Of a DNA stretch of 64,000 bases, positions 34,611-54,791 are shown piece after piece. Position 1 is the first letter of the stretch. Each line of letters begins with the position of its first letter. Under the pieces are notes generated by a model that ran no database searches, had not been told where the DNA came from, and saw nothing but the letters and a program-made list of their open reading frames with translations. Where the stretch lies: contig JACPHN010000019.1 of assembly GCA_016188575.1 (NCBI GenBank), forward strand, positions 1-64,000, read 5' to 3'. This stretch comes from Candidatus Schekmanbacteria bacterium. Lineage in GTDB: Bacteria > CSSED10-310 > JACPHN01. Position numbers and translations under genes: made by a program.

Positions 34611-36227
34611 ATGAAATCGTATAGCGCGTTGCACACCGACTCTCCCGAAGGCCCCGCTCCTCCCCCAACCGCCGAGCACAACGCGCCATCCGTGCACCGC
34701 ATCTCCGACCTCGTCGCCGCCACCGGCCTCTCCAAGGAGATCATCCACCACTACCTCCGCGCTGACCTCCTCCCGCGGTCCCCCGACCGCGGCCGCTATT
34801 CCGGTCGCCAGGTGCGCCTCCTGCGCCTGATCCGCAAGCTCCGCGAAGAGCACGGCCTCGCGCTCGAGACGATCCGCGCGCTGTTTGGCATCTTCAGCTT
34901 CGACCCCGACAAGCTCGAGCCACTCGTCCTCGGCGATTCCCTGGCCGCGCGCATGACTCGCCTGGCCGAAAGCGGTCACCTCCAACCCCAGGAGCGGCTT
35001 TCGGCGCAGGAGCTGGCCACGGCCGCCGGCGTCGGACCTGAACGCATCACCGAGTACCTCGCCGGCAGGCTCATCTGCCCGCGCCACGATGACAGCGGCG
35101 GCGTTCGGTTCTCGCGCTACGACGCCAACATCATCCAGCTCTGCGAGTATGGCCAGCGCCTCGGGATGCCCTACGAGTCGTTTCAGACGATCAGCTCCTT
35201 CATCCGCATCGCTTTCGAGCTGGAGCACGCGATCTTCTTGCGGGTGCGCCGCCATCCGGGAATGGGCGCCACGGACGTGCTTGCGGCGTTCTTCACGCAG
35301 CGCGAGATCGCCTCGAGCTTCATCGACAATGTGCTCCAGTCCCTCATCCACGGCCGCTTGCGCGATATCCTCGAGCATCGTGCGCCCGCCGTGCAGCGCC
35401 TCGACGACGTGCTGTACTGCCCGAGTCCGCTGTTTCGGCAGCGGTACGGACTGGAGGAGGCCGGCAGGCAGGCGCGCGAGCGCGTGGGAGCGGAACCGGC
35501 CAACCGTGAGGCCTGGCGGCACCTGGGCGCCATCTTGCTGCACGGGGGCCAGTACCGTGAGGCGACGTTCTTTCTGGAGCGCGCCCATCAGCAGTGGCCG
35601 GACGACGGCGCCATCCGCCTGGACTTTGCACGTGCGGTAATCCTGGCCGGCGACCGCGAGCGCGCACGCCTGCTGCTGGCGCCCGCCAGCACCGACGGCG
35701 CCGCAGCGGTGCGCTTGCCGCTTGCCGCGACCTACCTCGCGCTCGCGATGCTCGCCGAGCTACCCGCCGAGGACGGCGGCTGTGGCCGCCTTCAGACGGC
35801 AATCGACGCCAGCGCGCTCCTGGAAGCGGCCGCGGCGGCTCCCGTGCGCCCGGAAGACGCCGAGGACGCCGAGCGCTGCATGCTCTGCGGCTGGCTGCTG
35901 ACTGCCCTGCCGCCCCTGTTCCGGCGCGCCGGTCCCGGATCGCGCCTGCTCGCCGAGACGCTGGACCGGCTCCAGCGCCTCTCTGTCCCCCCCCCTGGAT
36001 GGCTGCCCGGCCAACGTGAGCGGTACCTGATCAACTGCTCGTATCTGCTCTTCGACGTCCTCGAACGGTGTCACGCACAGGGCCCCGACCTGGCTCCCGT
36101 GGCCGAGGAGTCCTTACGCACCACCATCTGCCGCCTCGACCCTGGGTGCCGGTTCGCTCAGGTCGTCTTCTTGGCGGGCCACCGCACCTCGACAGAAGGG
36201 GAGTCGCATGGTCAGTTCGGAGATTAG
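34611..36227 (+). CDS. Tandem MerR-like transcription regulator fused to a TPR-like domain
   Basis: This is a 538-residue regulator. Residues 28-92 form a MerR-type winged helix (HRISDLVAATGLSKEIIHHY, YSGRQVRLLRLIRKLREEHG). A second MerR-like unit follows at about 129-200 (SAQELATAAGVGPERITEYL, VRFSRYDANIIQLCEYGQRL). Helices then lead into TPR-like repeats from about 295 (EAWRHLGAILLHGGQYREAT, GAIRLDFARAVILAGDRERA). No effector-binding cysteines were seen. The start is the ATG after the promoter at 34575. Its end overlaps the hydrolase gene by 20 bases, so it likely controls the operon it heads. Confidence 0.8.
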   Translation: MKSYSALHTDSPEGPAPPPTAEHNAPSVHRISDLVAATGLSKEIIHHYLRADLLPRSPDRGRYSGRQVRLLRLIRKLREEHGLALETIRALFGIFSFDPDKLEPLVLGDSLAARMTRLAESGHLQPQERLSAQELATAAGVGPERITEYLAGRLICPRHDDSGGVRFSRYDANIIQLCEYGQRLGMPYESFQTISSFIRIAFELEHAIFLRVRRHPGMGATDVLAAFFTQREIASSFIDNVLQSLIHGRLRDILEHRAPAVQRLDDVLYCPSPLFRQRYGLEEAGRQARERVGAEPANREAWRHLGAILLHGGQYREATFFLERAHQQWPDDGAIRLDFARAVILAGDRERARLLLAPASTDGAAAVRLPLAATYLALAMLAELPAEDGGCGRLQTAIDASALLEAAAAAPVRPEDAEDAERCMLCGWLLTALPPLFRRAGPGSRLLAETLDRLQRLSVPPPGWLPGQRERYLINCSYLLFDVLERCHAQGPDLAPVAEESLRTTICRLDPGCRFAQVVFLAGHRTSTEGESHGQFGD

Positions 36228-37188
36228 CAAGCGGTTCGTTACCACGTCCTTCGGCCGTATCGCCTGTCTCGAAGCGGGAGATGCGGAGCGGCCACCGGTC
36301 TTGTTCATCCACGGTATTCCGACGTCGAGCTACCTGTGGCGGCACGTGATGAAGTTCCTGCAAAACGACTTCTACTGCATCGCACCGGACCTTATGGGCC
36401 TCGGCGACACAGAGGTGGATCCGGATGCGGGCTGCTTTGACATGGAGGCGCAGGCGGAGATGCTCCTGGAGCTCATGGATCAGCTCGGCCGTCGCGAGCT
36501 CGCCGTCGTCTGCCACGACCAGGGGGGCGCCGCCGCGCAGCTCATCGCTGCCCGCCAGCCCCAGCGCGTAAGCCAACTCGTCCTCACCGACTGCGTTTGC
36601 TACGACAACTGGCCCGTGCCCGCCATCGCCGCTCTGCAGCGTCTCGCCCGTCTCCCGCTCCTCGCCGATGCCCTGGGCCGCCTCGGCCTGTTCGCGCTCG
36701 CCGAGCGCTACAGCCCATTGTCCAGCTTCCGCCGCGGCATGTACGACCCGAGTCGGTTTCCAGACACATCGATCACGGAATATCTACGGCCGCTCGTCGC
36801 GAGCGCGGCGGCTCGCAAGCGTTTCTTCCAGTTCTTGCTCGCGGGGAGCAATCGCCATACGCTGGCAGCTCTCGACGGCCTGCGGCGCTTCGATCGGCCC
36901 ACCCTCATCTTGTGGGCCGCGGACGACGCCTACCTCTCGCCGTCGTGGGGCGTGCGCCTGTACGAAGACATCCCGGGCGCTCAGCAGTTCACGCTCATCC
37001 CCTTCTGCGGCCACTTCTGGCAGGAAGAGAGGCCTGCGGAGTTCGCCAGCAAGATCGGCGAGTTTCTCGCCGCAACGGCATCACCGGGGCGCGCTGGAGT
37101 GGAGCTCCGGGCGGAGGTGCATCGCTCCGCAGCCGCCTGTTCACCAGCTACCGCGCCCGCCGCCGCCTCCGGCGTGGCCAGCGCCTGA
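36208..37188 (+). CDS. Alpha/beta hydrolase of the Asp-nucleophile (dehalogenase/epoxide hydrolase) class
   Basis: This is a 326-residue hydrolase. It has HGIPTSSYLWRHVMKFL near the N-terminus, the nucleophile elbow VVCHDQGGAAAQ with D104, the acid D239/D240 in WAADDAYLSP, and the base H269 in FCGHFWQEE. Haloalkane dehalogenases have HDWG or QDWG here, with Trp binding halide; this protein has Gln in that place, so dehalogenation is doubtful. The last 40 residues are Ala/Pro-rich. GGGGAG precedes the ATG. The gene overlaps the regulator gene and is 16 bases from the radical SAM gene. Confidence 0.83.
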   Translation: MVSSEISKRFVTTSFGRIACLEAGDAERPPVLFIHGIPTSSYLWRHVMKFLQNDFYCIAPDLMGLGDTEVDPDAGCFDMEAQAEMLLELMDQLGRRELAVVCHDQGGAAAQLIAARQPQRVSQLVLTDCVCYDNWPVPAIAALQRLARLPLLADALGRLGLFALAERYSPLSSFRRGMYDPSRFPDTSITEYLRPLVASAAARKRFFQFLLAGSNRHTLAALDGLRRFDRPTLILWAADDAYLSPSWGVRLYEDIPGAQQFTLIPFCGHFWQEERPAEFASKIGEFLAATASPGRAGVELRAEVHRSAAACSPATAPAAASGVASA

Positions 37189-37204: not shown

Positions 37205-39049
37205 ATGGACAATACGATCCTGCTCACGACCCCCGCCTATCCGTACCCCACGCTTCCCGCTAATGACTCGCTCACGGACGCCACCGGCCAGCGGTTCACC
37301 AAGGGCGACGACCTTTTCACCATCATCTCCCATACCCACTGCTTTGCCAACCACATTCTCGCGCAGAACGTCTCCGTCCCGGCGGTCTGCCTCGAATACC
37401 CGCGGTGGGACGATTTCACCGCCGAGGTCGACAAGGGATACGGCCTGATCGGCATCAGCTTTTACCCGGTCCACATGGATCGCGTGCTCCAAATGTGCCA
37501 GTACGTCCGCCGGCGCTCGCCCGCCACGCGGATCATGCTGGGATCCTACGGCGCCATGGCCTTCGCGGCGAGCTTTGCCAAGGAGCGCCAGGCCGAGTAC
37601 GCCGATGACGTCATCCTCGGCGAAGGCGTGACGTTTCTGCGGCAATACCTCGGCGAGGATACGGCCCGTCCGATCCAACAACGCCTCATGCCCAAAGCCG
37701 GCGGCTCACCGCCGTTCATTACGCGCTACCCGCGTGGCACGATCGGCTTTCTCGTGTCCGGCCTGGGCTGTATCGGCGGCTGTGATTTCTGCTCGACCAC
37801 CGCAATGTTCAACCGCCGCCGCACCCAGTTGCTCTCCCCGGCGGAGCTCATCGAGCACATCCACCTCTACCACCAGCACTTTCCGACCCTGAAGCAGGTA
37901 TTCGTGATCGAGGAGGATCACTTCCGCTACCCCGAATATCTGTTTACGATCCGCGACTTCTGGGGCAACAACCCTGAGGTGGTCGAGGACCTGGATTGGT
38001 TCGCCTTCGGGTCGGTCGACCACATCGGGCGGTTCGCCGAAAAGCATGGCTGGGACGCCCTGGCAGACATCGGCATCGGCTGCATTTTCATCGGTGTCGA
38101 GTCCAAGCTTGCCGGCGAGCACGGATACAAGAAGCGCGCCACGGTGGACGCCCGCACCGTCTTCGAGCGGCTCCACGGTATGGGCATCCGCACGGTTGGC
38201 GCCTGGATGTGCGGATGGGACTGGCAGGACCACAGCAACATGTACGAAGACCTCAACTACTTCGTCGCCCTGTGCCCTACTTACCAACAGCTCACGCGCG
38301 TCTCTCCATTTCCCGGCACGACGCTCTGGGAGCGGTTGCGCGAGGAAGGCCGGGTGCGCGACGTCCCGTGGGAGGACGTGCACTTCTGGAGCGGCGCGCA
38401 AAAGAACGTTCATTTGGAGGCGCACGAGACGCTGAACCTGACTGAATACGGCTACGACCTGCTCTACCGGACGTGGGGACCGTCGTTGCTGCGCCGGCTC
38501 TACGTGGAGCTGGACGGTTACGCCTACTGCATCAAGTCGGAAAACCCCGTCCTGCGCCGCCACAAGGCGCGTTTTTTCAAGAAGCAGTGCGCGATGCTCT
38601 GGACAAGCCTGTACGCGATGGATCGCTTCGCGCCCAACGGCGTCGTGCGCCGCCGGGTGCGCAAAGCCGACGAGCAGTATCGCCGCGTGCTCGGCGAACC
38701 CACACCGGTGATGAAAACGCTCGGGCGCTTCATGGAGGCGGGCGCGACAGCCTTCAAGCTGAAGAGCTTCTTCGACCCGCTCAACCGCTCCCCAAAGGAG
38801 GAGCCGTTCAAGCGGTACACGTATGAAAAGAACGGAAACGGCAATGGAGCGATTCCGTATCGCACGGAGTGGCCTGGCGTGACGCCGCTGGCGACCCGCC
38901 TGGACCGGACCGCGGAGGCGATGACGCGCGAGGTGCTCGAAGGCGGCCTCAAGGCCGTGCGCGCCGCGACGTGGCGACAGGGCGATCGGCTCATCGACGA
39001 CTGTCTGATCAACATGATGGCGCAGGGGGGAATGGGGTTCGGATTCTGA
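37205..39049 (+). CDS. B12-binding-domain radical SAM protein
   Basis: This is a 614-residue enzyme. The N-terminal B12-binding-like domain (about 1-150) includes GYGLIGISFYPVHMDRVLQM, ATRIMLGSYGA and DDVILGEGV. The radical SAM core has cluster cysteines C189, C193 and C196 in GLGCIGGCDFCSTTAMF and the later segments VFVIEEDHFRYPEYLF, GIGCIFIGVESKLAGEHGYK and SPFPGTTLWERL. About 200 C-terminal residues form a basic helical region. Such enzymes methylate or rearrange unreactive carbons in lipids, pigments and natural products; the substrate here is unknown. Spacing shows an operon with the regulator and hydrolase. Confidence 0.86.
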   Translation: MDNTILLTTPAYPYPTLPANDSLTDATGQRFTKGDDLFTIISHTHCFANHILAQNVSVPAVCLEYPRWDDFTAEVDKGYGLIGISFYPVHMDRVLQMCQYVRRRSPATRIMLGSYGAMAFAASFAKERQAEYADDVILGEGVTFLRQYLGEDTARPIQQRLMPKAGGSPPFITRYPRGTIGFLVSGLGCIGGCDFCSTTAMFNRRRTQLLSPAELIEHIHLYHQHFPTLKQVFVIEEDHFRYPEYLFTIRDFWGNNPEVVEDLDWFAFGSVDHIGRFAEKHGWDALADIGIGCIFIGVESKLAGEHGYKKRATVDARTVFERLHGMGIRTVGAWMCGWDWQDHSNMYEDLNYFVALCPTYQQLTRVSPFPGTTLWERLREEGRVRDVPWEDVHFWSGAQKNVHLEAHETLNLTEYGYDLLYRTWGPSLLRRLYVELDGYAYCIKSENPVLRRHKARFFKKQCAMLWTSLYAMDRFAPNGVVRRRVRKADEQYRRVLGEPTPVMKTLGRFMEAGATAFKLKSFFDPLNRSPKEEPFKRYTYEKNGNGNGAIPYRTEWPGVTPLATRLDRTAEAMTREVLEGGLKAVRAATWRQGDRLIDDCLINMMAQGGMGFGF

Positions 39050-39177: not shown

Positions 39178-40302
39178 GTGAGGTGGCAGTCGCGGACATA
39201 TCCGTTTGCGGCGCTCGTCGGCCAGGATGAGGTCAAGCAGGCGCTCGTGCTGCTGGCGGTCAACCCCCGGCTCAACGGGCTGTTGATCCGCGGCGAGAAG
39301 GGGACTGCGAAGTCGACGGCGGCGCGTGGATTGGCGAGTCTGCTGCCGGCGGTGCAGCGCAATGAGGGGTGCCGCTTCGGCTGCGCCGCGGCTCGGCCGC
39401 GCAGTTGGTGCGACGAGTGTGTTACCCGCAGCCCGGTGCCCGCGGTGCCGTCGCCGCCTGGCTTTGAAACGCTACCGCTCGGGATAACCGAGGACCAGCT
39501 TCTCGGGACGATGGACCTCGAGCAGGCGCTCAAGCACGGCGAGAAGCGTTTCGCGCCGGGCTTGTTAGCGCGGGTGAACCACGGAGTCCTCTATGTCGAC
39601 GAGGTGAATCTGCTCGACGACCACATCGTCGACCTGTTGCTGGACTGCGCCGCATCCGGCGTGAACGTGGTGGCGCGCGAAGGCGTCGCCATCGCACATC
39701 CGGCGGATTTTCTCCTGGTAGGCACGATGAACCCGGAAGAAGGAGAGATCAGGCCACAACTGCTGGACCGCTTCGGCCTGTGCGTGGACATCCAGGGCGT
39801 TGGCGATCCCGAGGTCCGGGCGGAGATTGTCGAGCGCACTCTGGCATTCGAGAGAGATCCTGAGGGATTCACCGAGATCTGGGCGGAAGCTACGGCGGCG
39901 CTCAGCCGGACGATCGCCGCAGCGCGTGAAAAGCTCGCAGGAATGGTTCCCGCGCGGCGCTGGTTGCGGGCGGCGGCGCTCTTGTCGGTGTCGCTCGGAG
40001 TCGATGGGCACCGCGCCGACATTCTCATGGCGAAGGCGGCGGCGACGCTGGCGGCGGTTGCCGGGAGAGACCAGGTCGAGGCGACGGACTTCGAGGTCGC
40101 CGCGACGTTCGTCTACCCGCATCGGCTGCGGCGCCGGCCTTTCGAGGAGGCCGCAATGGGCGCGCGGGAGATTGCGGCCCGAGCGCGTGAGGTCGCCGCA
40201 GACGCCGCCGGCAGGGAGTACCTGGTGAGTGCCGCGGCGGGGGAGAAAAAAAAAGCCTTGACGCCAGCGGCCACGACGCCTCCGGCACCCTTGCCGACAT
40301 GA
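39178..40302 (+). CDS. Magnesium chelatase ChlI/BchI-like AAA+ ATPase
   Basis: This is a 374-residue AAA+ ATPase of the chelatase/MoxR clade. It begins YPFAALVGQDEVKQAL and has Walker A GEKGTAKST at 39-47, a cysteine-bearing insertion (C65, C69, C78, C81) that could bind zinc or a cluster, ITEDQLLGTMDLEQALKHGE, Walker B LYVDEVNLLDD, and NPEEGEIRPQLLDRFGL as sensor/Arg finger. Such ATPases pair with VWA proteins to drive metal insertion by ChlH or CobN subunits, or to remodel other enzymes. No such large subunit is in the window. GGAGG precedes the GTG start, and the VWA gene overlaps the end (ATGA). Confidence 0.88.
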   Translation: MRWQSRTYPFAALVGQDEVKQALVLLAVNPRLNGLLIRGEKGTAKSTAARGLASLLPAVQRNEGCRFGCAAARPRSWCDECVTRSPVPAVPSPPGFETLPLGITEDQLLGTMDLEQALKHGEKRFAPGLLARVNHGVLYVDEVNLLDDHIVDLLLDCAASGVNVVAREGVAIAHPADFLLVGTMNPEEGEIRPQLLDRFGLCVDIQGVGDPEVRAEIVERTLAFERDPEGFTEIWAEATAALSRTIAAAREKLAGMVPARRWLRAAALLSVSLGVDGHRADILMAKAAATLAAVAGRDQVEATDFEVAATFVYPHRLRRRPFEEAAMGAREIAARAREVAADAAGREYLVSAAAGEKKKALTPAATTPPAPLPT

Positions 40303-41471
40303 GCGGCGGAGGTCCGCCCGTTGCGGCGGGCGGTGACGCCCCGGCGCCGCCAGGACAGGGCGAGCGCAGCGGCGCATGGCGTTCTGCAGGGCGTGCCGGC
40401 GCCGCCGAGCAATGGGCAACGAATGCGCCGTCCGCGGGCGTTTTCCCCTGCTCCGGTAGCGGCGATGGGAAAACGGCGCGAGCGCGCCCGGAACCGCGAG
40501 CACGGGGGCTGTCGCTCTTTGCCGCGCGGCACGCGCTACGCCTGATGCGCGACGGCGGGCCGTCGCCGGCGACACCACCTGCCGCGTCCGACAAAAGCAT
40601 CGCCGACCTGCCCGCGGGGGCCATTCGCCAGCGCCCCAAACAGCAGCTCCGGCGGCTGCGCATCCCACCTCGTCCAGGGCGCGGCCGCTACCTCGGCCGC
40701 ACGGCCTCGCGGCTGGCCGGGCACCCCATCGCATGGGACGATTCTTTGCGGCACGCGCTCGCGGTGCCGCCGGCGACCACGGCGGCAACCTCGGGCCTGG
40801 CCGTGACCCTGCCGCTGTCGGCCCTGCGCCGCAAGCTCAGAGCCCCGCGCCCGCAGGTCCTCGTGCTCCTTGTCGTCGACGTCTCCGGGTCCATGGGCAC
40901 GAGCCTGATGGCGCTCGCCCGCGAGGTGGCGGAGCGGGTTCTCGAGCACGCCTATGTACGGCGGCTGCTGCTCGCCTTGATCGCGTTCCGCGCCGGCTCC
41001 GCCGAGCTTGTCGTCCGCCCCGGCCGGCAGCCCGAGCATCTCCGGCGCCGTCTCGCCGCGATGCGCTGTGGCGGTACCACGCCGCTGGCGGCAGCGCTGG
41101 GTCTCACGGCCGCAACTCTTGCCCGCGAGTCTCGCCGTCAGCCGCTCACCGGCGCTACTGTGTTGCTGATTACGGACGGACAGGCCAATGTAACCGCCCA
41201 CCGCAGGGGCGCCAGCGGGCTCCGCGAGGAGGTCGACGCATGGGCGCGGCGGCTGGCGGCGCGGCCGGGTTTGCGCATGCTGTTTCTGGACACCACGGAG
41301 GACGGGAAAGATGACCGCCCGGCGAGCGATCTCGCCGTGGCGCTTGGCGCCAGGCACGTGCGCCTGGCCGAGCTCAATCGCGAAGGCGCGGATCCGGTCG
41401 GCCGGATCGCTGGCTGGGTCACGCCTGCCGGCAACACCGGCAGGGGCGCCCTTGGCGCCGAGGAGGTGTGA
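40299..41471 (+). CDS. VWA-domain protein (ChlD-like, without AAA domain)
   Basis: This 390-residue protein has a Pro/Ala/Arg-rich first half, including the RRLRIPPRPGRGRYLGR type linker seen in ChlD/BchD, and a C-terminal VWA domain. The MIDAS motif is D194-V-S196-G-S198 in VVDVSGSMGTS, with GGTTPLAAAL and ITDGQAN completing the metal site. Real ChlD has an N-terminal AAA-like domain; this protein does not, so it is more like the short VWA partners of CobN-type or MoxR-type systems. It overlaps both neighbours by 4 bases. Confidence 0.85.
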   Translation: MSGGGPPVAAGGDAPAPPGQGERSGAWRSAGRAGAAEQWATNAPSAGVFPCSGSGDGKTARARPEPRARGLSLFAARHALRLMRDGGPSPATPPAASDKSIADLPAGAIRQRPKQQLRRLRIPPRPGRGRYLGRTASRLAGHPIAWDDSLRHALAVPPATTAATSGLAVTLPLSALRRKLRAPRPQVLVLLVVDVSGSMGTSLMALAREVAERVLEHAYVRRLLLALIAFRAGSAELVVRPGRQPEHLRRRLAAMRCGGTTPLAAALGLTAATLARESRRQPLTGATVLLITDGQANVTAHRRGASGLREEVDAWARRLAARPGLRMLFLDTTEDGKDDRPASDLAVALGARHVRLAELNREGADPVGRIAGWVTPAGNTGRGALGAEEV

Positions 41472-44400
41472 ACGTGGGAACTATCGTTGGGGGTTGCGAT
41501 CTTGGGAAGTGTGCCGCGCGGTTTGTCCTTGCGGAGGTGGGCGGCGTGGACGGGCTGGTGGTGCTCGACAAACAATACGTGTCGCACGAGGGCCGGCCGA
41601 TGGAGACGTTCCGCGCGTGGTACGCCGCGGAGAGCGTGGGGTCGCGCTGCGGGGCGCTGGCGGTAACCGGTCTGTACGGAGCGGAAGTCGCCGAACCGGG
41701 GCTCGGGGGCCTTCCCGAATCGGTGTGCCTCGAGGCGGCGCTTCGGCATCGCCCCGATCTTGCCGGCTCACTGAACATGGTCAGCGTCGGCGCGCGGGGC
41801 TATTCGGTGCTGACGCGCGACAGTAACGGTCACGTCAGCTACCTCGAGAACGACAAGTGTTCCTCCGGTACCGGCGAAACCATGGTCAAGATCGCCGCGC
41901 GCTTCGGGCTCAGTCTACAAGAAGCCGATCGTCTGGCGTCGACCGCGGCCGAGTCGATCGCCATCACTGCGCGCTGCTCAGTGTTCGCCAAGAGCGAGAT
42001 GACCCACTTCGGGAACCAGGGAAAGCCGGCGGACCAGCTTTTCCTCGGGTATTTCGAGTCGGTCGCCGGGTACGTCGCGGCGCTGCTCGGGCGCAGTCGC
42101 GTGCCTGGGCCGTGCTATCTGACCGGCGGCGGCGCCCGCATCGAAACGCTCGCGGCCGCGATCGCTCGGAGCCTCGGCGAGCCCGTCGCCGTGGATGTCG
42201 AGGCGCTGTTCATGGAAGCGCTCGGGGCCTGCGCCATTGCGGCGGACCACGCTCTCGCCGGCGGGCTTTCGGCTCTGCCCCGCGACCCGGCCGCGCTTAT
42301 CCGCACCACGCGGCGCCAGTTCCGACCGCTGCCCCCGGCGCGTAACTTCGCGCCCCTGGTGACCCGGTTGGCATCCGCCCCGGCGGTCCCCAGCGCGGAG
42401 CTCGCCGCGGGCGGCATCGAGCCCGCGGTGCTGGGACTCGACCTCGGTTCCACAGGAAGCAAGGCCGTACTGACATCGGTCGCATCCGGCGAAATGGTCG
42501 TCGACCTCTATGACCGCACCCGCGGCAATCCTGTCGAGGCTGCCAAGCGACTCGTCCGGGCGCTTCTGGATCAGGGTGCCGTCGACGTTCGCGCTATCGG
42601 GGTCACCGGTTCCGGCCGCGAGGCCGCCGCCACCGTGCTGCGCGCGACCTTCCCCGGGGCCGCCGAGCGCATCGTCGTCATCAATGAAATCGTCGCTCAC
42701 GCCACCGCCGCCATCCGCTGCGATCCGGACCATGGCCGCAGCCTGTCCGTGGTGGAAATCGGCGGACAGGACGCCAAGTTCATCCAGATCGCTCAGGGCC
42801 AGATCGTCGAGAGCGACATGAACAAGGCGTGCAGCGCCGGCACGGGATCGTTCCTCGAAGAGCAGGCACTGTTCTATGGAGTCACGGAGATCGGTGATTT
42901 CACCCACCTCGCGAGGCGCGGCGAGAACCCTCCCGAGCTCGGGCAGATGTGCACCGTGTTCGTCGCGGAGGCGGCCGCAGCGGCGCATCGCGAGGGGTTT
43001 TCGCGGGAGGACTTGTTCGCCGGCTTTCAGTACAGCGTGATCCACAACTACATCAATCGCGTGATGGGGCAGCGCACATTCGGCGAGCGGGTGTTCTTTC
43101 AGGGCAAGCCGGCGAGCGGCGACTCGCTGCCGTGGACGCTGGCGGCGGTAACCGGTCGCGAAGTAGTCGTGCCCTCAAACCCCGGCGCGATGGGTGCCTG
43201 GGGCATCGGCCTGTGCGCCATCGCGGCGCTCGGGCACGCGGCACTGCTCGAAGCTGAGCCGGTTCGCGTTACGGCCTTCCTCGATGCGCGCCGAGTCAAG
43301 AGCACCGAGTTTCAGTGCCGTGATCGCCGCTGTGCAACCTTGTGCCGCATCGAGAAGTCGGTTATCGAGGTGGAGGGACGCCGGGAGACGGTGCTGACCG
43401 GTGGCGCGTGCCCGAAATACGAGGTGACTCGTGCCGCGCTGCACGCCCTCCCGCCACACGCCCCGAGCGCCTTTGACGAACGCGACGCGCTGCTGGCGCC
43501 GTATCTGGCGGCGGCAGCTTCGCCCGGGGACGCGGCAACCGTGGTGGCCGTGCCTCTGGCCGGCGCCTGTTACCAGTTCGTTCCGTGGCTGACGACCTTC
43601 CTGCGCGGTCTCGGCGTGGCGCCCGTGGTTGTCCGCTCCGCGGCCGGCTCGCTGCGGCGCGGCGAGGAGCGCTGCTTCAGCTTCGACGCCTGTGCGCCGG
43701 TCAAGGTGGCGCACGGGCTCGCCGACGCTGGGGCTCCGATTGTCTTTTTTCCGAAGATCCTCAGTTTTCCCGATGCCGACGGTGCGGTGGGCAAGACGTG
43801 CCCCATGGAGCAGGGCGCGCCTGAAATGGTAGAGCAGGCGCTCGCGGGGCGCGGCATGGGCGTCGAGGTTCTCAAGCCCGTGATCCGCCTCGATCTCGGC
43901 CTCCGCGACGCGGAGACCCGCGCCTCTTTGTACGCGGTCGCCCGGCGTTTCGGCATCGGCTTCCCGGCGTTGTGGCAGGCGGTGCGCGCGGCCGATACGG
44001 CACAGCGGCGCTACGAGCAAGAGCTTGCATGCGTGGGCGAGCGCACCCTGTCATACGCCCGCGATCACGGACTGGCCGTGGTGGTGGTGTGTGGTTCGCT
44101 GCACGTAATTCATGAGCCCGCAGTCAATGCCGCGGTACCCGGAATCCTGCGCGACAACGGCGTTCTGGCCCTGCCCGTCGACTGTTTTCCGCTGCCGCCC
44201 GGGATCGACCCACTGGTCCGCGTGGTGTGGGGCGATGCCCGGCGAGCACTGCGGGCGGGGCTGGCGGCGCGCCAGCTCGGCGGCGTCTTTCCACTGCTGC
44301 TGTCTTCTTTCGGGTGCGGCCCCGCCTCATTTTCGGAGCATATCTTTCAGGAGCTCATGGACGGTTATCCCCACACCGCGCTCGAAACCGACGGTCACGG

Positions 44401-45772
44401 CGGAACCGCGGGTTACGTGACGCGCGTCCAGGCGTTCCTACACGCCGTCCGGCAACACGAAACCACACCGCTTCCGGCGCCCGCTGGCCGGCTCGCGCCC
44501 ATCGCGCCCCTGCCGACTCGTTCCATCCGCGACGAAAAGGACGCCCGCCTCGTGCTGTTTGCCATGACGGATCGCGTGCCGCGCATTCTCGCGAGCGCCT
44601 ATCGGTCATTTGGATTCGACGCGGTTGCGGCGGGCCCCTGCACTCAGGAGACGCTCGCCGCGGCCAGACGCGACTGCTCGGGGAAGGAGTGCATCGCCTA
44701 TCAAAACCTGTGGGGAGCGTTCCGCAGCTACCTCGAACGAGATCCGGACCACGCGCAACGCAAAGTCCTGATGCAGGTTTCCGGGGTCGGCATGTGCCGG
44801 AACTGCTTGTTCTCGGTCAAGGACCGCATTGCGCTCCGCGGTGTCCCCGGCGGGGATGCGGTCAGCCTGCGCCATTTTCACCTGGAACATGAGCTGGGAG
44901 TGGTGTTCACCGCCAAGGTGTGGACGGGTCTGGTGACGTGGGACCTGATCAACCAGCTCGCCGCGTATCATCGCGCGCTCGATCGCACGGGCCGCGAGGT
45001 AGATCACCTGTACGCGCAGTTTTGCGACGAGCTGGAGGCGCTCGTGGGTCGGCCGGTCAGCCCCGAGACGCCGCTCGGCACGCTCGCGCGCGGCGCCGAC
45101 GTGCTGGCCGCGCTCCGGCTGGTCGATCGCGCCGCGGACGCCTTCCTCGGGCTGGCGCGCCAGCGGCAGCCGGCCGGCGCAGACCTCCGCACGATCTTGC
45201 TGGCGGGCGATGTGTTCGTCCGTCTGGACGAGTTCGCGGGTGACCAGCTCGGCCGCCATCTTGCCAGTCTCGGGATTCGCGTCATCGTCGAGCCGCTAAA
45301 CGTGTTGGTCGAGTACCTCGCCCACGAGCGATCTCCCGAGCTGATCGGCTTGCCTACCAGTGGGTCTGCGAGCTGGACGCTGGCGCTGGCCATGCGCGTC
45401 ATCCGCGCCGAGCTCTACCGCCGTGTGCGCCGCAAACACCCTTGGCTGCCGATGCCCGATGCTCGCGCCGCCACCCGCGAATCCCGTGCCTTGATCGCTC
45501 GCCACCCGATCGGTGAGGGGCCGATAGCGATCGGCAGCGTGCTGCACGCGTGGCGGCAACGCATGTGCGATGGCGCGGTGCTGTCCAATCCGTGGGGGTG
45601 CGGGCCGGCGCTGATCACGGAAAGCTTGTTGCGGCAGCAGCGCCATATTCCAATGTTGTTCGTTTACCACGACGGCACGCCCATCGACGAGCGGCGCCTG
45701 CGCGGCTTCGCGTATCAGCTTCGGCGGCGCCCGGCGCGGACGGCTGTGGCGGCGGCGCCCGAGTTGCGGTGA
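41468..45772 (+). CDS. Giant acyl-CoA dehydratase activase / dehydratase-like fusion protein
   Basis: This 1434-residue protein joins four parts. Residues 1-270: an ATPase of the BcrAD/HgdC type (IVGGCDLGKCAARF; C131 in NDKCSSGTGE). About 315-590: a second such ATPase (VLGLDLGSTGSKAVLTS; C455 in NKACSAGTGSF). About 620-990: a DUF2229-like region (C648 in GGACPKYE; KTCPMEQGAPEM; SSFGCGPASFSEH). About 1000-1410: a COG3581-like region (C1075 in SGKECIAYQ; GMCRNCLFSVKD; C1378 in NPWGCGPALITES). Such proteins use ATP to send one low-potential electron through iron-sulfur clusters to a dehydratase or double-cubane partner. The GTG at 41468 overlaps the VWA gene; the GTG at 41474 has better spacing from GAGGAGG. 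Confidence 0.9.
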   Translation: MNVGTIVGGCDLGKCAARFVLAEVGGVDGLVVLDKQYVSHEGRPMETFRAWYAAESVGSRCGALAVTGLYGAEVAEPGLGGLPESVCLEAALRHRPDLAGSLNMVSVGARGYSVLTRDSNGHVSYLENDKCSSGTGETMVKIAARFGLSLQEADRLASTAAESIAITARCSVFAKSEMTHFGNQGKPADQLFLGYFESVAGYVAALLGRSRVPGPCYLTGGGARIETLAAAIARSLGEPVAVDVEALFMEALGACAIAADHALAGGLSALPRDPAALIRTTRRQFRPLPPARNFAPLVTRLASAPAVPSAELAAGGIEPAVLGLDLGSTGSKAVLTSVASGEMVVDLYDRTRGNPVEAAKRLVRALLDQGAVDVRAIGVTGSGREAAATVLRATFPGAAERIVVINEIVAHATAAIRCDPDHGRSLSVVEIGGQDAKFIQIAQGQIVESDMNKACSAGTGSFLEEQALFYGVTEIGDFTHLARRGENPPELGQMCTVFVAEAAAAAHREGFSREDLFAGFQYSVIHNYINRVMGQRTFGERVFFQGKPASGDSLPWTLAAVTGREVVVPSNPGAMGAWGIGLCAIAALGHAALLEAEPVRVTAFLDARRVKSTEFQCRDRRCATLCRIEKSVIEVEGRRETVLTGGACPKYEVTRAALHALPPHAPSAFDERDALLAPYLAAAASPGDAATVVAVPLAGACYQFVPWLTTFLRGLGVAPVVVRSAAGSLRRGEERCFSFDACAPVKVAHGLADAGAPIVFFPKILSFPDADGAVGKTCPMEQGAPEMVEQALAGRGMGVEVLKPVIRLDLGLRDAETRASLYAVARRFGIGFPALWQAVRAADTAQRRYEQELACVGERTLSYARDHGLAVVVVCGSLHVIHEPAVNAAVPGILRDNGVLALPVDCFPLPPGIDPLVRVVWGDARRALRAGLAARQLGGVFPLLLSSFGCGPASFSEHIFQELMDGYPHTALETDGHGGTAGYVTRVQAFLHAVRQHETTPLPAPAGRLAPIAPLPTRSIRDEKDARLVLFAMTDRVPRILASAYRSFGFDAVAAGPCTQETLAAARRDCSGKECIAYQNLWGAFRSYLERDPDHAQRKVLMQVSGVGMCRNCLFSVKDRIALRGVPGGDAVSLRHFHLEHELGVVFTAKVWTGLVTWDLINQLAAYHRALDRTGREVDHLYAQFCDELEALVGRPVSPETPLGTLARGADVLAALRLVDRAADAFLGLARQRQPAGADLRTILLAGDVFVRLDEFAGDQLGRHLASLGIRVIVEPLNVLVEYLAHERSPELIGLPTSGSASWTLALAMRVIRAELYRRVRRKHPWLPMPDARAATRESRALIARHPIGEGPIAIGSVLHAWRQRMCDGAVLSNPWGCGPALITESLLRQQRHIPMLFVYHDGTPIDERRLRGFAYQLRRRPARTAVAAAPELR

Positions 45773-45793: not shown

Positions 45794-45802
45794 TGCTAGG
45801 AT
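45794..45802 (+). promoter_or_regulatory. Extended -10 element (TGCTAGGAT) of the kinase gene
   Basis: TG-C-TAGGAT overlaps the first candidate ATG and lies 7 bases before the third ATG (45810), the same distance as at the two other leaderless candidates in the window. No Shine-Dalgarno sequence is present near these start codons. Confidence 0.35.
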
Positions 45803-48800
45803 GATGGCGATGACCAGCGAGGATCTTCCAACCCTTGGTCCGTTCGTCGCCGTCGCGGCGATCGGACAGGGCGGCATGGGCGTCGTCTACGCGGCCGTTG
45901 ACCGCCGCACCGGTGAGCGCGTGGCGCTGAAAACCGTGCGCTGCGCGGGGCGCGGTGCGGCCGGAGCCATGCGCCGTGAAATCCGCGCGCTGGCCGAGCT
46001 GCAGCACCCGGGCATCGTCCATATCCGCGGCCACGGCTTCGACGGAGGCCAGCCGTGGTATGCGATGGACCTGGTCGAGGGCAAGTCCTTGAGCACTCTG
46101 GGGCGCTCCGCAGTCACGAGCGCAGGCAGGCCGCTGGCCGCCGGCTGGCCGCGCGACCTGCTCACGGTCATTCGCCGCTTGTGCTTGCCGTTGGCCTACC
46201 TGCACGGCAACGGTTTCGTGCATTGCGATCTGAAACCCGGTAACGTCATCGTGCGCTCGGACCTCGTCCCGGTGCTTGTCGACTTCGGCGTCATCGCCAC
46301 ATTTGCCGGCAAGGCGAATCGCGAGCGGTTGCTGGCCGACGCGAGCTCCGGTGGTACGTTGACGTACATGGCGCCGGAGCAGATCCGCGGTGGGCTGTTG
46401 GATGCGCGAGCCGACCTGTATTCCCTGGGTTGCATGATCTATGAGCTCGTCGCGGGGCAGCCGCCGTTTGTCGCGGCGTCGGCGCAGGATGTCGTCCTGG
46501 CGCATCTTTCCGCGGCGCCGGCTCCGTTGTCACGGGTCTGCGCGCAGGTCCCCGCGGGCCTGGATGCGCTCCTCGACAGGTTGCTCGCCAAGGACCCGCG
46601 CCAGCGCTTCGGGTATGCGATCGACGTGGCCGCGGCGCTGGAACCTATGGGGGCCGAGAACGGTGCATTCTCGGGGGCACCGGTGGCGGGGCTCTACCTG
46701 TATCGATCGCGCCTGGTTGGGCGGGACGAGGCGCTCGGCTCGCTGCGCCAGCTTCTTGTGGGCGCCGGCGAAGGGGCCGCGCGCTGCGCCGTCCTGACCG
46801 GCGGCGGGGGAGTAGGCAAGACGCGGCTGGCCATGGAGCTGTTGGTAGAAGGCGAGTGCTGCGGGTTCGAGACGTTTTCGGGGCGGTGCCCGGAGCTGGG
46901 CTGCAAGCCACTCGAGCCGTTTCAGAGCGTCCTCCAACATCTGGCGCTCGGACTGCGGGAAGGCGCGATGACGGGCGACGCTCGCATGGCCACGGCGAGC
47001 CGCGAGCTCCTCGGGATCGCGGTCCCCGCGCTCGCGGGGGGGCGAGGCGGCGCGGAGCATGCCGGCCTGCCCCCGGCGCAGGTGCGGCGCCATCTGATCG
47101 CGACGATCGTTGAGGCGATCTCCGCTCTGGGTACGACTCAGCGCCTGTTGTTCGTGCTGGACGATGTGCAGTGGGCGGACGAGCTCTCCCTTGACGTGCT
47201 TGCGGCGCTTGGCGGCGGCATTACCGGCGATGTCGTCGTGGTCGCCTGCATGCGGACGGACGACGCGCTCCCGCCGGCGCTTGACGCGATGCGGCGCTCG
47301 GCCGACCTCGGAATCGAGCTCGCGGCGCTCTCGCCCACCGACGTCGGCCTCATGATCGCGGACATGCTGGCGCTGCGGGAAGTGCCGGCCGTCCTCGCCG
47401 CGCGGCTGTCTTTGCAGGGCCAGGGCAATCCGTACTACGTCGCCGAGCTGCTCCGTTCGCTGCTCGAAATCGGCCATTTGCGGCGCGACGAGCGAGGTGT
47501 GTGGCGGGTATGCGGAGCGGCCCTTGACGCGGAGGAGCTCGACCGCTTGCCACTGCCGTCATCGCTACGTGACCTCCTTTCCCGACGCCTTGCCGAGCTG
47601 GGAGCACCGGCTCGTAGCATCGCGGAAGTGGCGGCGATCGCCGGCCGCGAGGTGTCGCCGGCCCTGGCGCGCCGCGCCGCGGATCTTTCAGACGACGCTT
47701 TCTGGGACGGTTCCCGCGAGCTGCTGCGCCGGTCGCTGATGGAGGAGACGACCCAGGGATCACTGCGCTTTGCACACGACCATATTCGCGAGCGGACCGC
47801 GGCGGCGCTGGTCGACGAGCGCCGGCGACAGCTCCACGCCGCGCTGGGCGCCAGCATCGAAGCGCTTCCAGAGGCAGAGCGAGCGAAGCACGAACAGGTC
47901 CTCGGCTGGCACTGGGAGCAGGCCGGCGAGGTGGACCGGGCGCGTGCCGCGTACCTCGGCGCGGCCCGTAACGTCGCGAAAATGTTCGCGCATGCCGAGG
48001 CTGAACGGCTGTATCGCGCCTGCCTCGCGCTGGCCGACCGCGCGCCCGCGACGAGCGCGGCGGTGCTCGTGCGCGTGGAGCTCGGCGCGCGCGTTCTGGG
48101 GGTGTGCGGCCGGTTCGACGACGCGGTTGCCGAGCTCGACGGAGCGCTGGCGGCGGCACGCGAGCTCGGCGACGAAGGAGCGGCCGCCGAGGCACACCAC
48201 GCGCTCGGCGTCTTGTTGGCACGCACGGGTCGCGTCGCGGAAGGAATCACGATGATCGAGTCGGCGCTCGGCTTCTGGCGGCGGGTGGGCGCCGCCGCCG
48301 GGGAGGCGGCGCGCGTGGCGAGCTCCCTCGGGCTTCTTGGCGCGCTCTACGCCGAACAAGGGCGGCATGCCGAAGGGGAAGCGCTCATGCGCGAAGGCAT
48401 CGCCATGCATAAGGACCGCGGCGAGTTTGGCGCGGCAGGGACCGTGGTCGGCAATCTCGGGCTGCTCTGCGACCGTCTAGGGCGGCACGCGGAGGCCGAA
48501 GCGTGCTACACGGAAGCACTGCGCCTTCTCCACGACGGCGGCAACGTGTACGCCGAGGCCATCTGCCTGTCCAACCTCGCGATCCTCCACCAGCAGCGCG
48601 GCGCTCTCGAGGTCGCCCGCAATCTGCTCGCAAGCTCCGCGGAGCTGCACCGCAAAGTGGGAAACCGACAGTATGCCGGGATTGCCTGCTACAACCTGGG
48701 CGTGCTGGAGGCGGAGATCGACCCGTCACGGCACGCGCTCGCAGTCCAGCTCGTCGGGCAGGCGCTGGAGCTGGCGCGCGCCGTGCGCGACCGGCGCAGC

Positions 48801-49193
48801 GAGGGCATTGCTCTGGGCACGCTCGGCGACCTGGCGCTCGCCGCGGGCGAGGTGGAGCGGTGCCGGGAGCTTCTCGCGCTGGCGCTTGAGATTCACCGCG
48901 AGGTCGGAAACCAGCGGTATGAGGCCGTCGCGCTGGTCTCGCTGGCGCGCGTCGCGCGCACGCTGGACGGCGACATCGCGGCGGCCGAATGGCACCTGGA
49001 GCGCGCCGAGTCGATTCTGACGGCCGCAGAGGACCGCCACGAGCTGGCGCTGTGCCTGTGCGAGCGCGCTCGCTGTGCGCTGGCACGGAGCGAAGATGCG
49101 TCCGCCTTGGCGGCGCGAGTGCGGGAAATCGCCGCTGGTTTGGCTGTGGGTCCGCGCGGCAAGCTCGCCAAAGAGCTGGCCGATCTGCCGTAG
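45801..49193 (+). CDS. Ser/Thr protein kinase fused to an AAA-type ATPase and TPR repeats
   Basis: This is a cytoplasmic 1130-residue signalling protein. An N-terminal Hanks-type kinase (about 12-275) has IGQGGMGVVYAAVD, the lysine in VALKTV, HCDLKPGNVIV, VDFGVIA and MAPEQIRGG. An AAA16/STAND-like ATPase follows, with the P-loop TGGGGVGKTRL (about 332-342) and LLFVLDDVQWADELSL. About 450 C-terminal residues are TPR-like. The usual HRD is HCD here, so this is a non-RD kinase. Such fusions often control secondary metabolism or stress genes. ATGs at 45801, 45804 and 45810 are possible; the last fits the leaderless pattern. Confidence 0.9.
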   Translation: MMAMTSEDLPTLGPFVAVAAIGQGGMGVVYAAVDRRTGERVALKTVRCAGRGAAGAMRREIRALAELQHPGIVHIRGHGFDGGQPWYAMDLVEGKSLSTLGRSAVTSAGRPLAAGWPRDLLTVIRRLCLPLAYLHGNGFVHCDLKPGNVIVRSDLVPVLVDFGVIATFAGKANRERLLADASSGGTLTYMAPEQIRGGLLDARADLYSLGCMIYELVAGQPPFVAASAQDVVLAHLSAAPAPLSRVCAQVPAGLDALLDRLLAKDPRQRFGYAIDVAAALEPMGAENGAFSGAPVAGLYLYRSRLVGRDEALGSLRQLLVGAGEGAARCAVLTGGGGVGKTRLAMELLVEGECCGFETFSGRCPELGCKPLEPFQSVLQHLALGLREGAMTGDARMATASRELLGIAVPALAGGRGGAEHAGLPPAQVRRHLIATIVEAISALGTTQRLLFVLDDVQWADELSLDVLAALGGGITGDVVVVACMRTDDALPPALDAMRRSADLGIELAALSPTDVGLMIADMLALREVPAVLAARLSLQGQGNPYYVAELLRSLLEIGHLRRDERGVWRVCGAALDAEELDRLPLPSSLRDLLSRRLAELGAPARSIAEVAAIAGREVSPALARRAADLSDDAFWDGSRELLRRSLMEETTQGSLRFAHDHIRERTAAALVDERRRQLHAALGASIEALPEAERAKHEQVLGWHWEQAGEVDRARAAYLGAARNVAKMFAHAEAERLYRACLALADRAPATSAAVLVRVELGARVLGVCGRFDDAVAELDGALAAARELGDEGAAAEAHHALGVLLARTGRVAEGITMIESALGFWRRVGAAAGEAARVASSLGLLGALYAEQGRHAEGEALMREGIAMHKDRGEFGAAGTVVGNLGLLCDRLGRHAEAEACYTEALRLLHDGGNVYAEAICLSNLAILHQQRGALEVARNLLASSAELHRKVGNRQYAGIACYNLGVLEAEIDPSRHALAVQLVGQALELARAVRDRRSEGIALGTLGDLALAAGEVERCRELLALALEIHREVGNQRYEAVALVSLARVARTLDGDIAAAEWHLERAESILTAAEDRHELALCLCERARCALARSEDASALAARVREIAAGLAVGPRGKLAKELADLP

Positions 49194-53197: not shown

Positions 53198-54388
53198 ATG
53201 CCCGAGCCGAGCCGAATCTACCTCGACCACAATGCCACAACGCCGATCTGCCCGGAGGTCAGGGTTTTCATGGATCGCCTGCGGGATTCGTTCCCGCTGA
53301 TTGGTAACGCCTCGAGTCCGCACGCGGAGGGGCGACGCGCACGTCGCCTCGTGGAGGACGCCAGAGATAAAGTCGCGGCGCTCTTTGCCGCCGAACCGCG
53401 AGACGTGGTGTTCACCAGCGGCGCAACGGAGGCGAACAACCTGGCGATCTGGGGATGCGCCCTCAAGGAAATGGCGACAGGACACCGCCGGCCGTTTCTC
53501 GTATCCGCCACGGAGCATCCGTCGGTGTCGGAACCCGCCAAGCTACTCACCTCTTACGGCATTCCGGTCACCACGTTGCCCGTTGACAAAAACGGTGCCG
53601 TGGATGTGGATTTCCTGCGGGACGCGCTGCGCCGGGCGGGGGCCGCAATGATATGCGTGCAGCACGCTAACCACGAGACCGGAGTGTTACAGCCCCTCGC
53701 AGCGATCCTCGCGACCATCCGCGGCGCAGCGATGGCAGATCCGCCTCCGCATCTGCATGTCGATGTCGTTCAGAGTTGCGGGCACATGGCGATCGATTTC
53801 CCGCGGTCAGGAATCGATTCGATGGCCATTTCGGGTCACAAGATCTATGGACCTTCGGGAGTTGGCGCGTTGCTCGTGAGGGTAGGAGCGGAGCTTGTGC
53901 CGCTACTGCGCGGTGGCTTGCAGGAGCGGGGCCGGCGCCCCGGAACCGAGAACGCCGCGGCGCTTGCAGGGTTTGGCGAGGCGTGCCGCGTGGTCGCAAA
54001 CCATGTCGCGGGCGACGCCAAGGCGTTGGCGGCCCTGCGGGACCGGCTCGAGGCGGCCCTGCTCAGCCGTTGTCCTGAAGCCGCGGCCGTCGGCGCCGGC
54101 GCGCAGCGCATTCCGGGAACGAGCTGTATTCGGTTCTCGGGAACCGAGGCGCAGTCCGTCGTGGCGGCGCTCGATCTCGCGGGAGTTGCTGCAGCCGCTG
54201 GCAGTGCCTGCGCGTCGGGTTCCCCGGAGCCTTCGGCGGTGCTGCGGGCAATGCACTTTTCAGAACAGGAATCGGCCGAGGGTGTGCGCTTCAGTCTCGG
54301 TCGCGAGACGAGCATTGACATCGTAGATGACGCTGCCGTGCGCATCCCTGCCGTAGTAAGACAAGTTCGGGAGTTCTTGAATGTTTGA
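53198..54388 (+). CDS. Cysteine desulfurase (NifS/IscS family)
   Basis: This PLP enzyme removes sulfur from cysteine for iron-sulfur clusters or thio-modification. The 396-residue protein has YLDHNATTPICPEV, the PLP-binding FTSGATEANNLAI, the Schiff-base lysine K215 in ISGHKIYGPSGVG, RPGTENAAALAGFGEA and the sulfur-carrying cysteine C338 in GSACASGSPEPS. No iscU, nifU or thiI is adjacent. The neighbours suggest sulfur supply to a specific pathway. The ATG at 53198 is preferred over the GTG at 53180, as family members begin near the YLDH strand. Confidence 0.93.
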   Translation: MPEPSRIYLDHNATTPICPEVRVFMDRLRDSFPLIGNASSPHAEGRRARRLVEDARDKVAALFAAEPRDVVFTSGATEANNLAIWGCALKEMATGHRRPFLVSATEHPSVSEPAKLLTSYGIPVTTLPVDKNGAVDVDFLRDALRRAGAAMICVQHANHETGVLQPLAAILATIRGAAMADPPPHLHVDVVQSCGHMAIDFPRSGIDSMAISGHKIYGPSGVGALLVRVGAELVPLLRGGLQERGRRPGTENAAALAGFGEACRVVANHVAGDAKALAALRDRLEAALLSRCPEAAAVGAGAQRIPGTSCIRFSGTEAQSVVAALDLAGVAAAAGSACASGSPEPSAVLRAMHFSEQESAEGVRFSLGRETSIDIVDDAAVRIPAVVRQVREFLNV

Positions 54389-54791
54389 GATCATTGTGGA
54401 GCAAACGATCAGCGCCGCCCACCGACTGGTCATTCGCACCGCGAGTGGAGCGCTTGCGACCGACGAGCCCAATGCGCCCGCACAGCGCATCCATGGCCAC
54501 AACTGGCGCATCCGGGCAGCGCTGACGGCTCGGCGCCTTGATCGCAACGGCATGGTCTATGACTTTGGTCTCGCCGAAGACGCGCTCGCCGCGATTCTCG
54601 CGCCGTTCCGGCATCGGGATCTCGCCGCGCTGCCGCCGTTCGCGGAAATAAACCCCACCGCCGAAGTGCTCGCGCAGCACGTGACCTCCGAGCTCAGCAG
54701 GGTCCTGCGAGACCCCGAGGGACGGGGCCTGCGCGTGGCGTGGGTAGAAGTCTCCGAAACGCCGACGTGCCGGGCGCGCTACACTCCGTAG
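54381..54791 (+). CDS. 6-pyruvoyl-tetrahydropterin synthase / QueD-like protein lacking the catalytic cysteine
   Basis: This 136-residue protein has the PTPS fold. Zinc ligands are H14 (SAAH) and H38 and H40 (IHGHNW), with MVYDFGLAEDAL and the C-terminal Glu in VEVSETPTC. In QueD the catalytic cysteine lies four residues before the first HGH histidine; here that residue is A34. It therefore cannot act by the normal QueD mechanism and may be a PTPS variant with another reaction. It overlaps the cysteine desulfurase gene by 8 bases, the last of four coupled genes. Confidence 0.85.
   Translation: MFEIIVEQTISAAHRLVIRTASGALATDEPNAPAQRIHGHNWRIRAALTARRLDRNGMVYDFGLAEDALAAILAPFRHRDLAALPPFAEINPTAEVLAQHVTSELSRVLRDPEGRGLRVAWVEVSETPTCRARYTP

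Follow-up and report, generated by a model that had tools for sequence, protein, structure and literature searches.

A putative frameshifted chlD gene recurrently linked to a predicted one-chain reductase: a candidate client for chelatase-type motors without a large subunit

Frameshifted chlD genes (fs-chlD) are known (Antonov; Kuznetsov, Milenkin and Antonov 2022), and their role in the absence of cobN or chlH is reported as unknown (PMC9227772). In NorQD, iron is inserted into a client protein by an AAA+ ring that acts by way of its VWA partner (PMC13036017). The family of benzoyl-CoA reductases (BCR), 2-hydroxyacyl-CoA dehydratases (HAD) and DCCP has been described together with its three-cysteine clusters (PMC11971306). 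The stretch analysed here (the window) comprises 64,000 nucleotides of contig JACPHN010000019.1 from a Candidatus Schekmanbacteria genome. At positions 39178-45772 it carries a putative fs-chlD gene followed directly by a gene for a 1434-residue protein related to the BCR/HAD family. Judged from sequence, it is close to an even call that a dedicated ChlI/ChlD-type motor made from this fs-chlD gene matures or reactivates the adjoining protein, a predicted one-chain reductase. The fs-chlD gene includes the following elements.

39178..40302, plus strand: AAA+ product (ChlI-like), frame 0 of fs-chlD, with Walker A GEKGTAKS, Walker B LYVDE and a four-cysteine insertion
40246..40254, plus strand: A9 run within the overlap of the two frames (40191-40302), probable slippery site for the -1 frameshift
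40299..41471, plus strand: VWA part in the -1 frame, which is open from 40191, with intact metal-ion-dependent adhesion site (MIDAS)

The three open reading frames of the stretch overlap by 4 bases each, with ATGA joining the AAA+ and VWA frames and GTGA joining VWA to the 1434-residue protein, exactly where the original prediction placed them. That prediction treated AAA+ and VWA as two plain genes. Most likely they are one fs-chlD gene, which yields the AAA+ protein alone and, by -1 frameshifting, a ChlD-like AAA+-VWA fusion of 764 residues (39178-41471). The first reading missed that the VWA frame is already open some way ahead of its ATG, lies at -1 to the AAA+ frame and shares with it an overlap containing the A9 run; the AAA+ stop follows at 40300-40302. 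This run is the sole A-run of at least 7, and the sole A- or T-run of at least 8, in a 64-kb window of 66% GC. By our arithmetic, roughly 0.007 A9 runs are expected in 64 kb at ~17% A. The AAA+ protein is of the ChlI/BchI type: it matches TIGR02442 over residues 1-325 and also TIGR02030, and its closest solved relatives in the PDB are BchI and ChlI. The VWA protein matches only the C-terminal part of TIGR02442 (residues 409-640), and its MIDAS is intact as predicted (DVSGSM, GGTTPL, ITDG). Against TIGR02442 the fusion aligns over both halves with 584 bits, below the curated cut-off of 779 bits for this putative cobaltochelatase subunit model. Downstream of the slip site the RNA folds strongly, but no better than shuffled sequences (z -0.5). 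The four-cysteine insertion that was pointed out in the AAA+ protein is real. As a special mark of this system it is rejected: it is family-wide, and CobN-linked and orphan relatives carry it too.

The slip site recurs at the same frame junction in related genes, with a -1 shift in every case. It is A7 in two genomes that carry the same operon (G386 and G388), and A8 in a third (G387), where it lies at the very contig edge just before VWA. Runs of A9-A10 occur in the chlD genes of G003, from the same phylum as the window, and of G282, G241, G145 and G103. In G388, CTG stands in place of the overlapping ATG of the window, so conservation is stronger at the slip site than at the overlapping start codon. 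We infer the frameshift event itself from this conserved signal. Were the frame break a homopolymer sequencing error, the gene would be an ordinary fused ChlD-like one; A9 runs are error-prone, and one extra A would fuse the frames. Since independent assemblies show 7, 8, 9 and 10 A at this junction, always with -1, and the published fs-chlD class bears the same signature, this explanation is highly improbable. Two other chlD loci may be recorded here. An orphan fs-chlD gene of G003 (L127:9245-11586) has an A9 slip site and unrelated neighbours, and CobN/ChlH was not found in that genome. In G391, a CobN-like gene of 1306 residues lies beside ChlID/ChlI genes, and a separate split chlD gene is present too (L240:2072-4062 and L241:8085-15084).

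The protein encoded next to the motor has the following parts.

41468..45772, plus strand: probable one-chain ATP-driven reductase/dehydratase ('giant activase'), 1434 residues, with BcrAD twice, DUF2229 and HAD/BCR/DCCP folds
41468..42367, plus strand: activase (ASKHA) domain 1, about residues 1-300, with C131 and C170; activase-family matches
42431..43204, plus strand: activase (ASKHA) domain 2, residues 322-579, with C455 and C495; PF01869/TIGR00241
43316..43411, plus strand: four-cysteine module C617/C622/C626/C648, invariant in the family
43451..44461, plus strand: HAD/BCR/DCCP-fold half 1, about residues 662-998, with C742/C778/C950
44537..45724, plus strand: HAD/BCR/DCCP-fold half 2, about residues 1024-1419, with C1070/C1075/C1110/C1378

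The two TIGR00241/BcrAD matches and the DUF2229 match bear out the domain content first read from the sequence. The activase cluster cysteines C131/C170 and C455/C495 are invariant in ~70 homologues, as are C617/C622/C626/C648, C742/C778/C950 and C1070/C1075/C1110/C1378. AlphaFold models residues 640-1434 and 1003-1434 with confidence, at a mean predicted local distance difference test score (pLDDT) of 91. In fold comparison, half 1 resembles DCCP, HadBC, BzdNO and MbdON with Z of 13.2-15.5. For half 2 the same DCCP/HadBC/BzdNO/MbdON family fills the top eight rows with Z of 10.6-12.0, and Foldseek gives E 1.6e-4 to DCCP. A sequence search of the C-terminus against solved structures returns no relative, and fold comparison alone revealed the family. 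A resemblance of the halves to ChlH (Z 6.6) is weak, stands among unrelated Rossmann-type matches and was set aside. On these models, the protein is probably a one-chain activase plus catalytic pair, a reductase/dehydratase that resembles class I benzoyl-CoA reductase joined into a single polypeptide. The original prediction saw a giant activase, of a kind that passes electrons to dehydratase-like partners; since both C-terminal halves themselves have the catalytic-subunit fold, a separate partner need not be assumed.

Three further genes lie upstream on the same strand.

34692..36227, plus strand: MerR-type DNA-binding and TPR protein, probable operon regulator (Pfam MerR_1 and TPR)
36208..37188, plus strand: alpha/beta hydrolase, haloalkane-dehalogenase-like (Pfam Abhydrolase_1)
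37205..39049, plus strand: B12-binding-type radical SAM protein, CxxxCxxC in LGCIGGCDFC, HpnJ-like, with weak Pfam B12-binding and Radical_SAM matches

The MerR/TPR gene also heads the cluster in G386, G388 and G002, the last from the same phylum as the window. Hydrolase genes 55-60% identical and radical SAM genes 61-71% identical to those of the window occur in the operons of these three genomes and of G387. A reductase scan with one genome per species (84,980 species) gives 80 loci, 76 of them in a near group of 42-57% identity. VWA lies directly upstream of the reductase in three loci. In L160 (G386, a Polyangiaceae metagenome-assembled genome) the order is the same as in the window: regulator, hydrolase, radical SAM, AAA+, VWA, reductase. 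For L206 (G388), the AAA+ frame lies with the same upstream genes on another contig, which ends 245 bases past the slip site. For L147 (G387), the hydrolase and radical SAM genes are at the end of another contig; its AAA+ part was not found in this assembly, in which the operon is incomplete. With G386 and G388 closely related to each other, the four genomes represent three lineages.

The linked motor proteins stand apart from their relatives. In trees, operon-linked AAA+ proteins form one clade (98/98) and linked VWA proteins form one clade (96/86), both away from CobN-linked and other orphan proteins. Exactly one chelatase-type AAA+ is present in each of the window genome, G386 and G388, and only 5 of 282 genomes in the phylum of G386 have a chlD-type VWA. 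The linked reductases are deeply divergent, and the question whether they form one clade gives approximately unbiased (AU) test p-values of 0.064 with G002 and 0.042 without it. Recurrent linkage and a motor clade of its own are what a dedicated motor would look like, and the link is supported by these comparisons.

No ChlH or CobN is found in the window genome, G386, G387 or G388, all incomplete drafts. The absence claimed in the original prediction for the neighbourhood thus extends over the whole 94%-complete genome of the window, and to all three other genomes in which the link was found. This bears on the reading that the gene belongs to a genuine metal chelatase for tetrapyrroles, with a large subunit that escaped recognition or is encoded in the 6% of the genome that is missing. 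In favour of it, the motor shares homology with the I and D subunits of Mg- and Co-chelatase. With CobN/ChlH in 0 of 4 genomes that have the linked operon, and no tetrapyrrole gene recognised in the operon, it is very unlikely.

Several observations weigh against a motor dedicated to the reductase. In G002, the regulator, hydrolase and radical SAM genes lead in that order straight to the reductase gene, and that genome has no such AAA+ or VWA elsewhere. VWA is present at only 3 of ~69 related reductase loci that have at least 0.6 kb upstream, and among 13 close homologue loci from the phylum of G386, G386 alone has it. The radical SAM protein accompanies the fs-chlD pair as faithfully as the reductase does. 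AAA+ and VWA are also absent beside the reductase paralogues of the window genome (contigs C162 and C67), and no such reductase occurs near other chlD/chlI genes in 28 neighbourhoods examined (pieces of ~4-20 kb). Most other reductase loci lack the pair and have varied regulators in its stead. To judge from the G002 operon, the many loci without the pair and the paralogues, the motor belongs to one type of operon as an accessory, and the enzyme does not need it in general. The suggested association is recurrent and not accidental; as a general requirement of the reductase it does not stand. In L164, L169, L170 and ~15 other loci, a divergent gene of one family (331 residues in L164) lies just upstream of the reductase. 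By eye, this gene of many desulfobacterial reductase loci encodes an AraC/GlxA-type regulator. A VWA scan of viral contigs found nothing.

Such a distribution could also come from a bystander. The fs-chlD gene would then be carried along in the operon with no effect on the neighbouring products, or would regulate or sense something unrelated, and the linkage would be inherited or moved en bloc. Most related reductases and the G002 operon do without fs-chlD, and orphan fs-chlD genes elsewhere adjoin unrelated genes. Against this, fs-chlD keeps its position, and its frames overlap or are tightly coupled, across lineages whose reductases are only ~55% identical, and it forms its own clade with Walker and MIDAS motifs intact. 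We consider a bystander unlikely.

The equally faithful radical SAM gene means that the client of the motor could be either protein. In one version, the motor would load a cofactor into the B12-type radical SAM protein or remodel it, with the reductase a mere neighbour in the pathway. The radical SAM gene is upstream in every fs-chlD operon where this region is visible, in G386 directly and with TGATG coupling, and its subfamily is better conserved than the reductase. In G002, the same radical SAM subfamily occurs without fs-chlD, and in the listed neighbourhoods of more distant radical SAM homologues no chelatase gene is tightly linked. An AAA+ loader is not known as a requirement of class B radical SAM enzymes, which also counts against such a client. 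Altogether this version is distinctly unlikely.

The reading of a dedicated motor for the reductase can be put as a mechanism. A -1 frameshift on the A9 run would give two subunits, one ChlI-like (AAA+) and one ChlD-like (AAA+-VWA), and both would assemble as in Mg- and Co-chelatase but without ChlH or CobN. The client would most likely be the next protein, whose single chain combines two activase domains with two catalytic halves of the HAD/BCR/DCCP fold. Docking on this predicted reductase/dehydratase may take place through the MIDAS of the VWA part. ATP hydrolysis by the ring would then open the reductase so that Fe-S clusters are inserted, repaired or reset, a step that is likely by analogy with NorQD. 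The hydrolase and the radical SAM protein of the operon would belong to the same pathway, probably with an acyl-CoA or lipid substrate. Complex formation, client and substrate are all inferred.

The gene company of the reductase in Polyangiaceae relatives suggests acyl-CoA or lipid chemistry. There it lies beside a thiolase, an AMP-ligase, an SDR protein, two acyl-CoA dehydrogenases, a ferredoxin-nitroreductase, a hydrolase and a radical SAM protein. One such reductase-family operon, with this gene set and with a nitroreductase of Fer4 type and a hydrolase of alpha/beta type, is at L183:9318-24188 (also L195 and L161, with similar genes in L218), and possibly encodes an undescribed acyl-CoA or lipid pathway. 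At L220:5783-14197, genes for a radical SAM protein, a molybdopterin oxidoreductase, a small protein and a one-chain reductase stand in a row. In the window, the gene directly downstream of the reductase (45801-49193) encodes a Ser/Thr kinase with a fused AAA_16 domain and TPR-like repeats farther along; it is not kept beside the reductase in relatives. Farther away, 53198-54791 holds a Class-V aminotransferase gene (cysteine-desulfurase-like by eye) and then a 6-pyruvoyl-tetrahydropterin-synthase-type gene. At the window edge, 68-436 is a low-complexity open frame of repeated valine-arginine-rich units. PADLOC gives no match.

Compared with described systems, the locus is closest to the 'stage 1' fs-chlD genotype (PMC9227772), which likewise has one gene with AAA+ in frame 0, VWA at -1, an A-rich slip site and no CobN/ChlH in the genome. 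It differs in that a radical SAM protein and a BCR/HAD-type reductase recur with it in one operon, and in forming a clade of its own. With Mg-chelatase ChlIDH and cobaltochelatase CobNST it shares the I- and D-type motor subunits and the MIDAS in the VWA part; here, the genome has no large tetrapyrrole-binding subunit and the neighbour is a predicted Fe-S reductase. The MoxR-type pairs NorQD, CbbQO and CoxDE are similar in that an AAA+ ring and a VWA adaptor are encoded beside a metalloenzyme; the client of NorQD depends on this pair for insertion of its metal. In this locus, AAA+ is of the ChlI type and both subunits most likely come from one frameshifted gene; no MoxR-specific model is among the AAA+ matches, the best being ChlI/Mg_chelatase models and BchI/ChlI structures. 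The dedicated fs-chlD clade in an operon with a predicted ATP-driven radical reductase offers a first candidate client for chelatase motors without a large subunit. If the client role is true, metal-loading motors extend to the enzyme family of Birch-type reductions with unusual Fe-S clusters. A bolder and rather unlikely version is a third kind of chelatase-type machine, in which the frameshift-made ChlI/ChlD motor would use the one-chain reductase as its 'large subunit' and build or exchange metal in its Fe-S (possibly double-cubane) clusters. Orphan ChlID pairs elsewhere might then also serve Fe-S radical enzymes and not tetrapyrroles. The 1434-residue protein shares with class I benzoyl-CoA reductase, 2-hydroxyacyl-CoA dehydratase and DCCP two activase domains, two catalytic-subunit folds and conserved cluster cysteines. 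In class I benzoyl-CoA reductase, activase and catalytic subunits are separate, the clusters are [8Fe-9S] and [4Fe-4S]-OH2, and benzoyl-CoA is the substrate; here, all four modules are in one chain of 1434 residues, which has an extra four-cysteine module that sets it apart from the BCR/HAD family.

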